Shown in pieces: positions 26,638 to 30,165 of a stretch of DNA of 64,000 bases. Each line of letters opens with the position of its first letter. Positions within the stretch are counted from its first letter, which is position 1. The stretch comes from Luteibacter sp. (GTDB lineage Bacteria > Pseudomonadota > Gammaproteobacteria > Xanthomonadales > Rhodanobacteraceae). The stretch lies in contig NZ_WNDO01000012.1 of assembly GCF_009912395.1 (NCBI RefSeq), positions 1-64,000 on the forward strand, given 5' to 3'. The notes under the pieces were generated by a model that was not told the origin of the DNA, searched no databases, and saw nothing but the letters and a program-made list of their open reading frames with translations. The position numbers and the translations under genes are program-made.

Positions 26638-28272
26638 ATGACGCGCCTTCGCCACCTTCTCGCCTTCGGCGTCACCAGCTTCGTCGTCGCGCTTGCCGCG
26701 CAGGCGCAGGACCCCGCAGCGGCCCCTGCCACTGCGACGAGCGCTGCGCGCCCGGAGGCGCTGGCCGATTTCGACGCCTACGTCGATGCCACGCGCAAGC
26801 AGTTCGACGTGCCGGGTATCGCGGTGGCGATCGTGAAGGACGGCAAGATCGTGCTCGAGATGGGTTCCGGCGTACGCAAGCTCGGCGAGCCGGCGAAGGT
26901 GGACGCGCATACGCAGTTCGCCATCGCGTCGAACACCAAGGCCTTCACCGCCGCCTCGCTGGCGATCCTCGCTGACGAGAAAAAGCTCGACATGAACGAC
27001 CGGGTGGTCGATCGCCTGCCGTGGTTCCAGATGTCGGACCCTTACGTCACGCGCGAAATGCGCATCCGCGATCTGCTGGCCCATCGCAGTGGCCTGAGCC
27101 TCGGTGCCGGTGACCTGCTGTATTGGCCCGCCACCAGCTACACCACGGAAGAGGTGGTGCAGCGATTGCGCAACGTTCCGCTGACCAACAGCTTTCGTGC
27201 CGAGTACGCCTACGACAACATCCTGTTTGGCGTGGCGGGTCTTGTGATCGAGAAGGTGTCGGGACTGTCGTGGCACGATTTCGTGAACCAGCGCATCTTC
27301 ACCCCGCTGGGCATGACCGAGTCGCGCAGTGACGCGCCCACGCAGATCGGTCCGGGGGACGATGTCGCCACCGGTCACGCCAAGTTCGACTTCAAGGACC
27401 TGAAGCCGGTCGCGCCGATGTCCTGGACCAACAACCAGACGGCGGGTGGCATCTACACCAGCGTCCACGACCTCTCCAAGTGGATGAACATGCAGCTGGC
27501 CGGCGGCGCCTACACGGACGCCAGTGGCAAGCCGCAGCGCCTGTTCTCCGAGGCCCGCCAGAAGGAAATGTGGTCGCTGATCACGCCGATCCGCATTTCG
27601 GAGCCGAGCGTGCCGGAACTGAAGGCGGTCAAGCCCAACTTCTCCGGTTATGGCGAAGGCTGGTTCGTCTCCGATTACCGCGGTCACAAGCTGGTGTGGC
27701 ACACCGGCGGCTGGCCCGGCATGGTGTCGCGCCTGACCCTGGTCCCCGACCTGCACCTGGGCGTGGTCGTGCTGACCAACCAGGAAAGCGGTGCCGCGTT
27801 CCAGGCGGTGACGATGCGCGCGCTCGACGCCTATATGGACGCACCGAAGACCAACTGGATCGCCGCGTACGCCGCGGGCGTGAAGAAGGCCGAGGCCGGC
27901 GCCGACGACAGCATGAAGAAGCACGAAGCGGCCCGCGCGAAGAACGCGAAGCCGTCGCTGCCGCTCGACGGCTACGTGGGCACGTATCGCGATCCCTGGT
28001 ACGGCGACGTCAAGGTGGACAAGGAGGGTGGCAAGCTCGTGATGCGCTTCACGAAGACTGCCCAGCTCACCGGCACCCTGGAGCCGTGGCAGCACGATAC
28101 GTTCATTGCCCACTGGAACGATCGCTCGCTCAACGGCGACGCCTTCGTCAATTTCTCACTGGACCCGGACGGCAAGATCCGCGAAGTGCGCATGGAGCCG
28201 GTCTCGCCGCTCACCGACTTCAGCTTCGACTTCCAGGACCTGCGCCTCGCCCCCGTGACCCCGGCCAAATAA
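26638..28272 (+). CDS. exported serine hydrolase (beta-lactamase/PBP-like) with C-terminal DUF3471-like domain, 544 aa
   Basis: Signal peptide FGVTSFVVALAAQAQ, with cleavage near AQA. The class C beta-lactamase/D-aminopeptidase fold shows S-x-x-K in IASNTKAFTAASLAIL, the Tyr motif in YAYDNILFGVAG and the third motif HTGGWPG. RDLLAHRSGL is the conserved loop. A C-terminal region after about residue 445 (LDGYVGTYRDPWYGDVKV) is the lipocalin-like DUF3471 unit common in these esterase/peptidase-like enzymes. True beta-lactamase activity is not implied. It is followed by the asnB leader region. Confidence 0.9.
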   Translation: MTRLRHLLAFGVTSFVVALAAQAQDPAAAPATATSAARPEALADFDAYVDATRKQFDVPGIAVAIVKDGKIVLEMGSGVRKLGEPAKVDAHTQFAIASNTKAFTAASLAILADEKKLDMNDRVVDRLPWFQMSDPYVTREMRIRDLLAHRSGLSLGAGDLLYWPATSYTTEEVVQRLRNVPLTNSFRAEYAYDNILFGVAGLVIEKVSGLSWHDFVNQRIFTPLGMTESRSDAPTQIGPGDDVATGHAKFDFKDLKPVAPMSWTNNQTAGGIYTSVHDLSKWMNMQLAGGAYTDASGKPQRLFSEARQKEMWSLITPIRISEPSVPELKAVKPNFSGYGEGWFVSDYRGHKLVWHTGGWPGMVSRLTLVPDLHLGVVVLTNQESGAAFQAVTMRALDAYMDAPKTNWIAAYAAGVKKAEAGADDSMKKHEAARAKNAKPSLPLDGYVGTYRDPWYGDVKVDKEGGKLVMRFTKTAQLTGTLEPWQHDTFIAHWNDRSLNGDAFVNFSLDPDGKIREVRMEPVSPLTDFSFDFQDLRLAPVTPAK

Positions 28273-28286
28273 GCGCCTACCCCCCT

Positions 28287-28316
28287 GTTGCAACGCAATG
28301 CGAATCATGGTCTAGT
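28287..28316 (+). promoter_or_regulatory. asnB: candidate promoter of the asnB leader
   Basis: A TTGCAA -35-like hexamer at 28289-28294 is followed after 16 bases by TCTAGT (28311-28316, 4 of 6 matches to TATAAT). The predicted transcript start falls at about 28322-28325, on or next to the leader ATG, which implies a leaderless leader-peptide mRNA. Assigned by eye. Confidence 0.4.
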
Positions 28317-28333
28317 CGGGTCATGATTCGCAT
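28298..28333 (+). promoter_or_regulatory. 12-bp dyad overlapping leader start
   Basis: ATGCGAATCATG at 28298-28309 and its exact complement CATGATTCGCAT at 28322-28333 flank a 12-base spacer. The right arm contains the start codon of the leader peptide and the spacer covers the candidate -10. It could be a repressor/activator operator or, if transcribed, a hairpin hiding the start codon. Confidence 0.5.
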
Positions 28334-28391
28334 CGCCGCCAATAACGCCAATACCAATAATGCCCGGAACATCGGGAGGGTCGGCGTGTAG
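28323..28391 (+). CDS. Asn-rich leader peptide of the asnB attenuator, 22 aa
   Basis: A 22-codon ORF (ATG 28323, TAG 28389-28391) has Asn at codons 7, 8, 10, 12, 13 and 16: six of 22 residues, five of them within seven codons. Four are AAT, a codon rare in this GC-rich genome. It is followed 30 bases later by an intrinsic terminator and then by asparagine synthetase. Codons 18-21 (28376-28384, GAGGGTCGG) can pair with CCGCCCTC at 28428-28435 with one bulged U, which would break the terminator stem. Ribosomes stalled at the Asn codons would leave this segment free (antitermination); ribosomes reaching the stop codon would cover it (termination). This is the textbook geometry of amino-acid attenuation. 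Upstream of the ATG there is no good ribosome site. Confidence 0.75.
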   Translation: MIRIAANNANTNNARNIGRVGV

Positions 28392-28421
28392 GCGGTTGCA
28401 ACAGAAACCACCGAAAACACC

Positions 28422-28456
28422 AAAGGCCCGCCCTCACCAGGCGGGCCTTTTTCTTT
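28422..28456 (+). terminator. attenuator terminator before asnB
   Basis: AAAGGCCCGCC (28422-28432) pairs with GGCGGGCCTTT (28440-28450), loop CTCACCA, followed by TTCTTT. It ends 38 bases before the asnB start codon and after the Asn-rich leader ORF. It could also simply end the preceding hydrolase transcript, but its position suits attenuation. Confidence 0.85.
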
Positions 28457-28494
28457 GCGCGTTTTGATCCACCTAACCGAAGGAGAGAAAGGCC

Positions 28495-30165
28495 ATGTGT
28501 TCGATATTCGGGATGTTCGGCCTCGCGCCGGGCGACGACCTGGTCGCCCTGCGCGTGCAGGCCATGGAGCTATCGCAGCGGCAGCGGCATCGCGGTCCGG
28601 ACTGGAGCGGCGTGTACGTCGACGACGGGGCGATCCTCGTCCACGAGCGCCTTGCCATCGTCGACCCGGCCAGCGGCGCACAGCCCCTGCGCTCGCTGGA
28701 TGGTGAGTTGGCTCTCGCGGTGAACGGCGAGATCTACAACCACCGCGAACTGCGTGCGGCCAGCGACTATGCCTTCACCACCGGCTCGGATTGCGAGGTG
28801 ATCAACGCGCTCTATCGCGAGCATGGCGCGGATTTCCTGGGTCGCCTGAACGGCATTTTCGCGTTCGCCCTGTGGGATGCGAAGCGTCGCCGCTTCCTCA
28901 TCGCTCGCGATCCGGTCGGTGTCTGCCCGTTGTACTGGGGGCATGACAGGGAAGGGCGCCTTTGCGTCGCGTCGGAGATGAAGTCGTTGATCGGCGTATG
29001 TGCCGACGTGGCGCCGTTCCCGCCGGGCCATTGCTACGACAGCGAACGCGGCGAGGCCGTGCGTTACTGGACCCCCGGGTGGCGCGACTACGACGCCACG
29101 GCCGGCCATGAGCTGGCACCGAAGGATCTTCGCGCCGCCTTCGAAGCCGCGGTGCATCGCCAGATGATGACCGACGTGCCCTATGGTGTCCTGCTCTCCG
29201 GTGGCCTGGATTCCTCGCTGGTGGCGGCCGTCGCGGCGAGTTTTGCCCGTCACCGCATCGAGGACGGCGATCGCGGCGAGGCATGGTGGCCGCGGCTGCA
29301 TTCCTTCGCGATCGGCCTGGAAGGCTCCCCGGACCTGAAGGCCGCCGAGGTCGCCGCCGAAGCGCTCGGCACCGTGCATCACGGCTTCCGCTACACCTTC
29401 GAGGAAGGCCTGGACGCGCTGCCCGAGGTCATCCGGCATATCGAAACCTACGACGTCACCACCATCCGCGCTTCCACGCCGATGTTCCTGCTGGCCCGCC
29501 GGATCAAGGCGATGGGCGTGAAGATGGTGCTGTCGGGGGAAGGTTCGGACGAAGTCTTCGGCGGCTACCTCTACTTCCACAAGGCGCCCTCGGCCCGTGA
29601 GTTCCACGAGGAAACCGTGCGCAAGCTCGACGCACTGCATTTCTACGACTGTCTGCGTGCGAACAAGTCCATGTCCGCCTGGGGAGTGGAGGCACGGGTG
29701 CCCTTCCTCGACACCGAGTTCCTGGATGTCGCCATGTCGTTCGACGCGGAGGCCAAGATGGTGGCCCGCAAGGGCATCGAGAAGGGCATCCTTCGCGAAG
29801 CCTTCGAGGGCGCGCTGCCAGACTCGATCCTCTGGCGCCAGAAGGAGCAATTCAGCGACGGCGTGGGCTACGGCTGGATCGACGGACTCAAGGCGCATGC
29901 CGAGTCGATGGTCTCCGATCGCGAATTCGCCGCCGCGGCGGCCCGCTTCCCGGTGAACACTCCGGCCACCAAGGAGGCCTTCTTCTATCGGACGATCTTC
30001 GAGAGGCACTTCCCGGGCGAGGCCAGCGCCAACACGGTGCCCGGCGGCAAGTCCATCGCCTGTTCCAGCCCAGCGGCCCTGGCCTGGGACCCGGCCTTCG
30101 CCTCGGCCGCCGATCCGTCGGGCCGGGCGGTACGGGGCATTCACAAGGAGGCCCTCGAGGCCTGA
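28495..30165 (+). CDS. asnB: asparagine synthetase B (glutamine-hydrolysing), 556 aa
   Basis: Makes Asn from Asp, Gln and ATP. The N-terminal Ntn glutaminase domain starts MCSIFGMFGL with catalytic Cys2 after Met removal; RGPDWSGVYVDDGAILVHER and AVNGEIYNHRELR are the glutaminase-site blocks. The C-terminal synthetase domain has the PP-loop LLSGGLDSSLVAAVAA near residues 231-246, and SGEGSDEVFGGYLYF. Length equals E. coli AsnB. AGGAGAG precedes the ATG by 7-10 bases. A candidate Asn attenuator precedes it. It is a single-gene unit followed by a REP element. Confidence 0.96.
   Translation: MCSIFGMFGLAPGDDLVALRVQAMELSQRQRHRGPDWSGVYVDDGAILVHERLAIVDPASGAQPLRSLDGELALAVNGEIYNHRELRAASDYAFTTGSDCEVINALYREHGADFLGRLNGIFAFALWDAKRRRFLIARDPVGVCPLYWGHDREGRLCVASEMKSLIGVCADVAPFPPGHCYDSERGEAVRYWTPGWRDYDATAGHELAPKDLRAAFEAAVHRQMMTDVPYGVLLSGGLDSSLVAAVAASFARHRIEDGDRGEAWWPRLHSFAIGLEGSPDLKAAEVAAEALGTVHHGFRYTFEEGLDALPEVIRHIETYDVTTIRASTPMFLLARRIKAMGVKMVLSGEGSDEVFGGYLYFHKAPSAREFHEETVRKLDALHFYDCLRANKSMSAWGVEARVPFLDTEFLDVAMSFDAEAKMVARKGIEKGILREAFEGALPDSILWRQKEQFSDGVGYGWIDGLKAHAESMVSDREFAAAAARFPVNTPATKEAFFYRTIFERHFPGEASANTVPGGKSIACSSPAALAWDPAFASAADPSGRAVRGIHKEALEA

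Follow-up and report, generated by a model that had tools for sequence, protein, structure and literature searches.

An Asn-rich leader ORF conserved upstream of asnB in Luteibacter and its relatives, a candidate ribosome-mediated attenuator

The asparagine synthetase gene asnB of Luteibacter sp. and its relatives is preceded by a short ORF rich in Asn codons and by an intrinsic terminator, and this arrangement very likely controls asnB as a ribosome-mediated transcription attenuator that responds to charged Asn-tRNA. The parts of the element, their conservation, selection at the level of codons, the possible pairings and a promoter-like sequence were observed in the window (the whole stretch of DNA that was analysed, 64,000 nucleotides from contig NZ_WNDO01000012.1) and in related loci. 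For the comparisons, 171 non-identical upstream regions were scanned, of which 136 passed a filter on the ORF and a promoter score, a filter that favours promoter-bearing rows. A terminator between the leader ORF and asnB was found in 132 of these 136 rows; three of the four that were dropped (L047, L063 and L078) have a stem without a run of three T directly after it, and the fourth is a non-leader. Within the window, the locus is laid out as follows.

28288..28293, + strand: predicted −35 element, TTGCAA (TTGC is found in 123 of 132 rows, and 131 of the 132 have a 17- or 18-nt spacer)
28311..28316, + strand: predicted −10 element, TCTAGT, with 6 nt between its end and the leader ATG
28323..28391, + strand: leader ORF, MIRIAANNANTNNARNIGRVGV followed by a stop codon; probably leaderless, with the transcript start predicted at or beside the ATG
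28341..28370, + strand: regulatory stretch, codons 7-16 with six Asn (assigned from pN/pS at the Asn columns and from the AAT share)
28335..28349, + strand: segment 1, predicted to pair with 28383-28396 when ribosome-free (MFE structure); the model no longer forms this pairing once the A site is placed at codon 7, 8 or 10
28374..28396, + strand: segment 2, the final leader codons and 5 nt past the stop (assigned by folding and homology); 28374-28389 is the predicted 5' strand of the antiterminator and 28383-28396 the partner of segment 1
28422..28435, + strand: segment 3, the 5' arm of the terminator (28422-28432) and the start of its loop, predicted partner of segment 2
28440..28456, + strand: segment 4, the 3' arm of the terminator (28440-28450) and a T-rich tail; hairpin core −19.9 kcal/mol
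28481..28485, + strand: Shine-Dalgarno sequence of asnB, AGGAG, assigned from sequence (116 of 132 rows have an SD-like motif upstream of asnB)
28495..30165, + strand: asnB, glutamine-hydrolysing asparagine synthetase of 556 aa and the proposed regulated gene (Pfam PF00733, 1.7e-86; PF13537, 6.7e-40)

The initial annotation of this DNA had described a leader ORF with Asn at codons 7, 8, 10, 12, 13 and 16, four of them AAT, and re-reading of 28323-28391 gave the same result. The strong terminator that it reported consists of an 11-bp stem (28422-28450) and the TTCTTT that follows it; this G+C-rich hairpin starts 30 nt downstream of the leader stop codon, and asnB starts at 28495, which is indeed 38 nt past 28456. 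A Pfam search of the asnB product returned the Asn_synthase domain PF00733 and a glutamine amidotransferase domain.

In the mechanism that we infer, from transcription start and translation through stalling and termination to the response to Asn, the transcript would start at or beside the leader ATG and the leader would be translated from this 5'-AUG without a Shine-Dalgarno sequence. With Asn-tRNA plentiful, the ribosome would reach the stop codon and cover segment 2, upon which the terminator (3:4) would form and transcription would halt before asnB. With Asn-tRNA in short supply, the ribosome would stall at the first Asn codons and cover segment 1; segment 2 would then pair with the 5' arm of the terminator while its 3' arm is yet to be transcribed, and the polymerase would enter asnB. 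If the leader is not translated, the 1:2 hairpin would leave the terminator free, and the default in this sequence would be off. Of 41 genomes, 39 have asparaginyl-tRNA synthetase (AsnRS) above the cut-off; none has AsnA above it, with one match below.

The leader is widespread among close relatives. Of 80 asnB loci from named organisms, mainly Luteibacter, Dyella, Rhodanobacter and relatives with one Luteimonas, two were left out of the count with just 123 and 60 nt of upstream sequence. All 78 others, which have at least 400 nt upstream, carry an ORF with at least three Asn in 14 residues before asnB; 72 of them have at least five Asn in 14 residues and 69 at least six. The closest asnB among the 80 named loci is that of Luteibacter anthropi, with 95% identity. 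Among 200 genomes drawn from the order, 127 contained asnB at an E-value of 1e-150 or better. The leader was present in 29 of the 30 asnB-carrying genomes of the window's own family (f1; strong model matches), in 32 of 33 of family f2 and in 3 of 3 of family f3, and G114 (f2) and G091 (f1), which lack it, have a more divergent asnB (64% and 66% identity, respectively). Thirty of the 61 asnB genomes from more distant families of the order were fetched, and among these 30 the combination of ORF, terminator and model match was confined to a single locus, L177, while L110, L170, L179 and L180 each carry an ORF with three Asn. L177 (genome G105, family f8) has an isolated leader-like ORF, MFAIYNTINTTNNRLLRSAGSF, and a terminator before asnB, with a model match at E 6.6e-7; its leader may stem from descent, transfer or convergence. 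In other orders, no ORF with at least five Asn in 14 residues was found in 52 asnB upstream regions, one of them just 162 nt long; an ORF with three or four occurs in 13 of these regions.

A covariance model of the element was built from 58 rows of one alignment (A1), and 19 candidates per genome were scored with it. In the 200 genomes this gave 37 matches at E < 1e-6, all 37 directly upstream of asnB, and many of the matched rows or their near relatives are themselves in the model. Because the model contains relatives and 19 candidates were scored per genome, weaker elements elsewhere may be missed. The ten weaker matches inspected contained no Asn run, and two of them, L288 and L292, have ORFs with a few scattered Asn. 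By sequence comparison, the Asn-rich ORF, the hairpin and asnB are a conserved unit.

The Asn-rich stretch is not expected by chance, since none of 16,056 control short ORFs has six or more Asn in 14 residues versus 105 of the 132 leaders. The controls were start-to-stop ORFs of 10-45 residues from 620 kb, comprising the window and 80 related loci with the 450 nt before asnB masked, and their maximum was five Asn in 14 residues, from two starts of one ORF. Three groups of leaders (17, 21 and 15 distinct sequences) were used to estimate selection. The pN/pS ratio at the Asn columns was 0.15, 0.14 and 0.04, versus 1.00, 1.14 and 1.01 in the part upstream of the Asn run; in the tails it was 0.96 and 1.34 in two groups, the third tail having no synonymous change to compare. 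The Asn columns show synonymous exchange of AAT and AAC, and AAT accounts for 0.48 of the Asn codons in the leaders versus 0.13 in asnB. Leaders range from 20 to 45 residues, apart from one row of 66 residues whose start is doubtful, and the leader peptide matched no NCBIfam or Pfam family. As far as substitution patterns can tell, constraint at the protein level is limited to the Asn columns; the codons are selected and the peptide is not.

The high share of AAT would also fit a leader that regulates asnB through a general readout, such as slow translation, leaderless initiation or ribosome loading, with the Asn codons acting merely as unstructured AAY. Other A/T-rich codons could give low structure as well, yet it is Asn that is kept while AAT and AAC exchange, and the strong model matches all lie before asnB. 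We regard such a general readout as very unlikely. The conservation of the leader ORF in at least three families might instead reflect a functional small peptide, to which the terminator and the pairing would be secondary, and attenuator peptides can work in trans, as described for peTrpL (PMC7298713). The leader has no sign of peptide constraint outside the Asn columns, however: its variable length, the pN/pS of about 1 before the Asn run and similar values in two of the tails disfavour a functional peptide, as does the way in which the tail changes so as to match the terminator arm (see below), and we consider this explanation highly improbable. It is scarcely credible that the hairpin is simply the 3' terminator of the serine-hydrolase gene at 26638-28272 and that the Asn-rich ORF is coincidental. 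That gene runs in the same direction and ends some 150 nt upstream of the hairpin, but of the 75 loci with 1.5 kb or more of upstream sequence just one, L001, has a homologue in that position, while the leader is kept across the loci. We rejected this reading, which also gives no account of the Asn run or of its selection and pairing.

Attenuation as proposed above requires that the end of the leader compete for the terminator. The initial annotation had drawn a pairing of 28376-28384 with 28428-28435, and this duplex can be drawn by eye with U at 28381 bulged. Folding gave a related register (28376-28381 with 28430-28435 plus 28383-28385 with 28426-28428), and homology gave another in which 28374-28382 faces 28425-28433 with 8 of 9 positions paired. 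The codons after the Asn run can pair with the terminator 5' arm over 7 to 12 bp in all 118 non-redundant rows, a count from optimised duplexes that is biased toward pairing. Between families the helix has compensating exchanges, namely C-G/T-A, A-T for G-C once in the core, and G-C/T-A/C-G further in. Tails form more stable duplexes with their own arm (−22.2 kcal/mol) than with an arm from another class (−16.4 kcal/mol), and for 124 of the 132 the own arm outperforms the class mean. When the tails were shuffled, the mean z-score was −3.26, and for 86 of the 132 no more than 2 of 200 shuffles did as well. When the partner strand was slid along in A1, the paired cells fell from 93.5% to 57.9% or less. 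Within f1 (A1), where the helix shows almost no variation, covariation is weak: a two-sided change occurs in 1 of 8 pairs, and 137 of 500 shuffles reach as much. Locus L160 (genome G155, f2) carries a natural double change, with tail GCAGGCC and arm GGCCTGC, by which the antiterminator stays Watson-Crick and the terminator gains a U-G pair.

In the window itself, the fold of 28318-28460 has a z-score of −2.87, with 1 of 200 shuffles equally good. Base shuffling produced a tail:arm duplex as good in 11 of 200 cases, and redrawing synonymous codons did so in 3 of 200; the duplex is thus only moderately unusual in this one sequence, and the comparative data carry the weight. The MFE structure of the unmasked window RNA also contains a 1:2 hairpin of 28335-28349 with 28383-28396, which was absent from the first account of the locus. 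That account had proposed looking in relatives for conservation of a short Asn-rich ORF and alternative hairpins while the remaining sequence drifts. This is what the comparison revealed: the ORF is present in all 78 countable named loci, the Asn columns are constrained and the preceding part is neutral, and the pairing is kept with compensating changes between families. The attenuator interpretation is therefore well supported by comparison across relatives.

Ribosome positions were modelled by treating the footprint as unpaired bases and cutting the RNA before the terminator 3' arm. For the window, masked folding predicted 0.2 antiterminator bp when ribosome-free; the value was 9.2 for a ribosome with the first Asn codon in its A site and 0.3 for one at the stop codon. 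The MFE structure holds the antiterminator for stalls at codons 7, 8, 10, 12 and 13, and not for a stall at codon 16. Averaged over 132 rows, the corresponding values are 8.4 ribosome-free, 9.7 stalled and 1.5 at the stop codon, and the stalled state exceeds the stop state by at least 4 bp in 109 of the 132. Hence the earlier proposal that a stalled ribosome exposes the pairing segment and a ribosome at the stop codon covers it holds in the model, both for the window and for these 109 rows. A default-off state is not general, because the ribosome-free mean is close to the stalled mean. The 23 rows with a separation of less than 4 bp include 11 from f2, several of which have a stop codon further from the pairing segment. 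In genus g15 of f2 (L149-L151 and L154-L157), the leader stop lies several codons beyond the antiterminator segment, and under the simple footprint model that segment would stay uncovered by a ribosome that has reached the stop codon. When the complete window RNA with both arms was folded at equilibrium, the terminator won at every modelled ribosome position; the choice would thus have to be kinetic and made during transcription, as in known attenuators.

A promoter-like sequence at the leader ATG, which the initial annotation did not mention, suggests how translation of the leader might begin. A TTGC-like hexamer upstream of the leader start is separated by 17-18 nt from a T....T hexamer; the commonest −10 hexamer is TCTAGT (32 of 132 rows), and the distance from the −10 end to the start codon is 6 or 7 nt in 125 of 132 rows. 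An SD-like 4-mer is found upstream of the leader start in only 4 of 132 rows, versus 116 of 132 upstream of asnB. Since the start codon in the other rows was chosen with the promoter score, the 54 rows with a single in-frame ATG were taken separately, and 49 of these score at least 7.5 at that spacing versus 1.2% of random ATGs. The sequence in the window has 8 of 12 consensus bases, with C at the second −10 base, and a strict sigma-70 scan of the window called no promoter. Because the promoter-like sequence ends 6-7 nt before the ATG and SD-like motifs are rare, the asnB leader ORF is probably leaderless.

A second leader of this kind was noted in the same genome, where L296 (contig C9, 1200-1328) carries a leader ORF, MTQRNIHGRFALDLLTAVTGKLRLGGGLLLISLVLITCGGAG, before leuA, and 7 nt separate the end of TTGACA-18-TACGAT from the leader ATG. 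Among f1 genomes with a leuA match, 8 of 8 (L301-L308) have a promoter-like sequence 6-8 nt before the ATG of the leuA leader. A terminator and a competing pairing were found in the window's own genome, the one genome checked, and the leuA leader is probably a leaderless branched-chain attenuator. A scan for a his leader before hisG of the same genome found none. We lean, with some reserve, towards a broader view in which the attenuators of this order are leaderless as a rule, with promoter and leader ORF fused, and in which the asnB element is an old member of this set that has persisted in at least three families, as well as the first ribosome-mediated attenuator specific for Asn. If this rule is true, the first transcribed base would be that of the start codon, and ribosome and polymerase would be synchronised with no 5' UTR.

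The his, thr, leu, ilv, trp and phe leaders of Proteobacteria are well known, and several have Rfam leader families. Like them, the asnB leader has an ORF with codons for the amino acid that the gene product makes, predicted 1:2, 2:3 and 3:4 pairings that exclude one another, and a terminator before the gene. It differs in its amino acid and gene, Asn and asnB, and in the rarity of an SD-like motif before the leader ORF. The initial annotation had likened it to the his, thr, leu and ilv attenuators, and the defining features of that logic that sequence and modelling can address are present. An Rfam scan of the window gave no match at the gathering score; the best leader scores were 22.7 bits for Thr_leader (gathering score 55), 17.1 for Phe_leader (55) and 16 for Trp_leader (41). 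The leuA leader resembles that of asnB in combining a leader ORF that has a promoter-like sequence near its ATG with a terminator and a competing pairing, and differs in its branched-chain codons, a classical specificity. In Firmicutes, asn genes are preceded by Asn-specific T-boxes, which bind tRNA directly. The signal, charging of tRNA-Asn, and the kind of target would be the same, but in the asnB leader the sensor would be the translating ribosome, and a scan of the window gave no T-box match. Regulatory leader ORFs at the 5' end of a transcript have precedents: rnTrpL of Sinorhizobium meliloti begins with the trpL ATG (PMC7298713), and the polycysteine ORFs of mycobacteria are reported to be leaderless leader ORFs (Canestrari 2020). 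From these, the asnB element differs in amino acid, gene and lineage.

The suggestion that an Asn-sensing leader of this kind may be undescribed fits the titles and abstract openings found, none of which reports an Asn leader of asnB, and stops short of proof, as the search lacked two attenuation surveys likely to list one. Text searches found neither asparagin- nor asnB in the main texts of a 2010 survey of premature terminators (PMC2965389) and a 2005 actinobacterial study (PMC1262725), and no asparagin- in a 2016 leader-gene paper (PMC4833913). As tested by sequence and modelling, the asnB leader would represent a new specificity, Asn, of classical attenuation. To our knowledge, classical attenuation has been described for a short list of amino acids, to which an Asn sensor before asnB would add, and a large group of related bacteria gains a proposed regulator for asparagine synthetase. 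A naturally SD-less attenuator would also offer a system for studying initiation at a 5'-AUG and its coupling to the polymerase.

Two further observations concern the surroundings of asnB. The window's own genome has a second asparagine-synthetase-like gene on contig C54 (34699-36312, − strand), which scores above the TIGR01536 cut-off. In 13 of the 171 rows, mostly from Rhodanobacter-type genomes, copies of a palindromic repeat (GGCCATSSATGGCC with flanks) lie between the terminator and asnB; examples are L014 and L053 (at about 2600-2900), and L053, where the leader sits further upstream of asnB, retains it.
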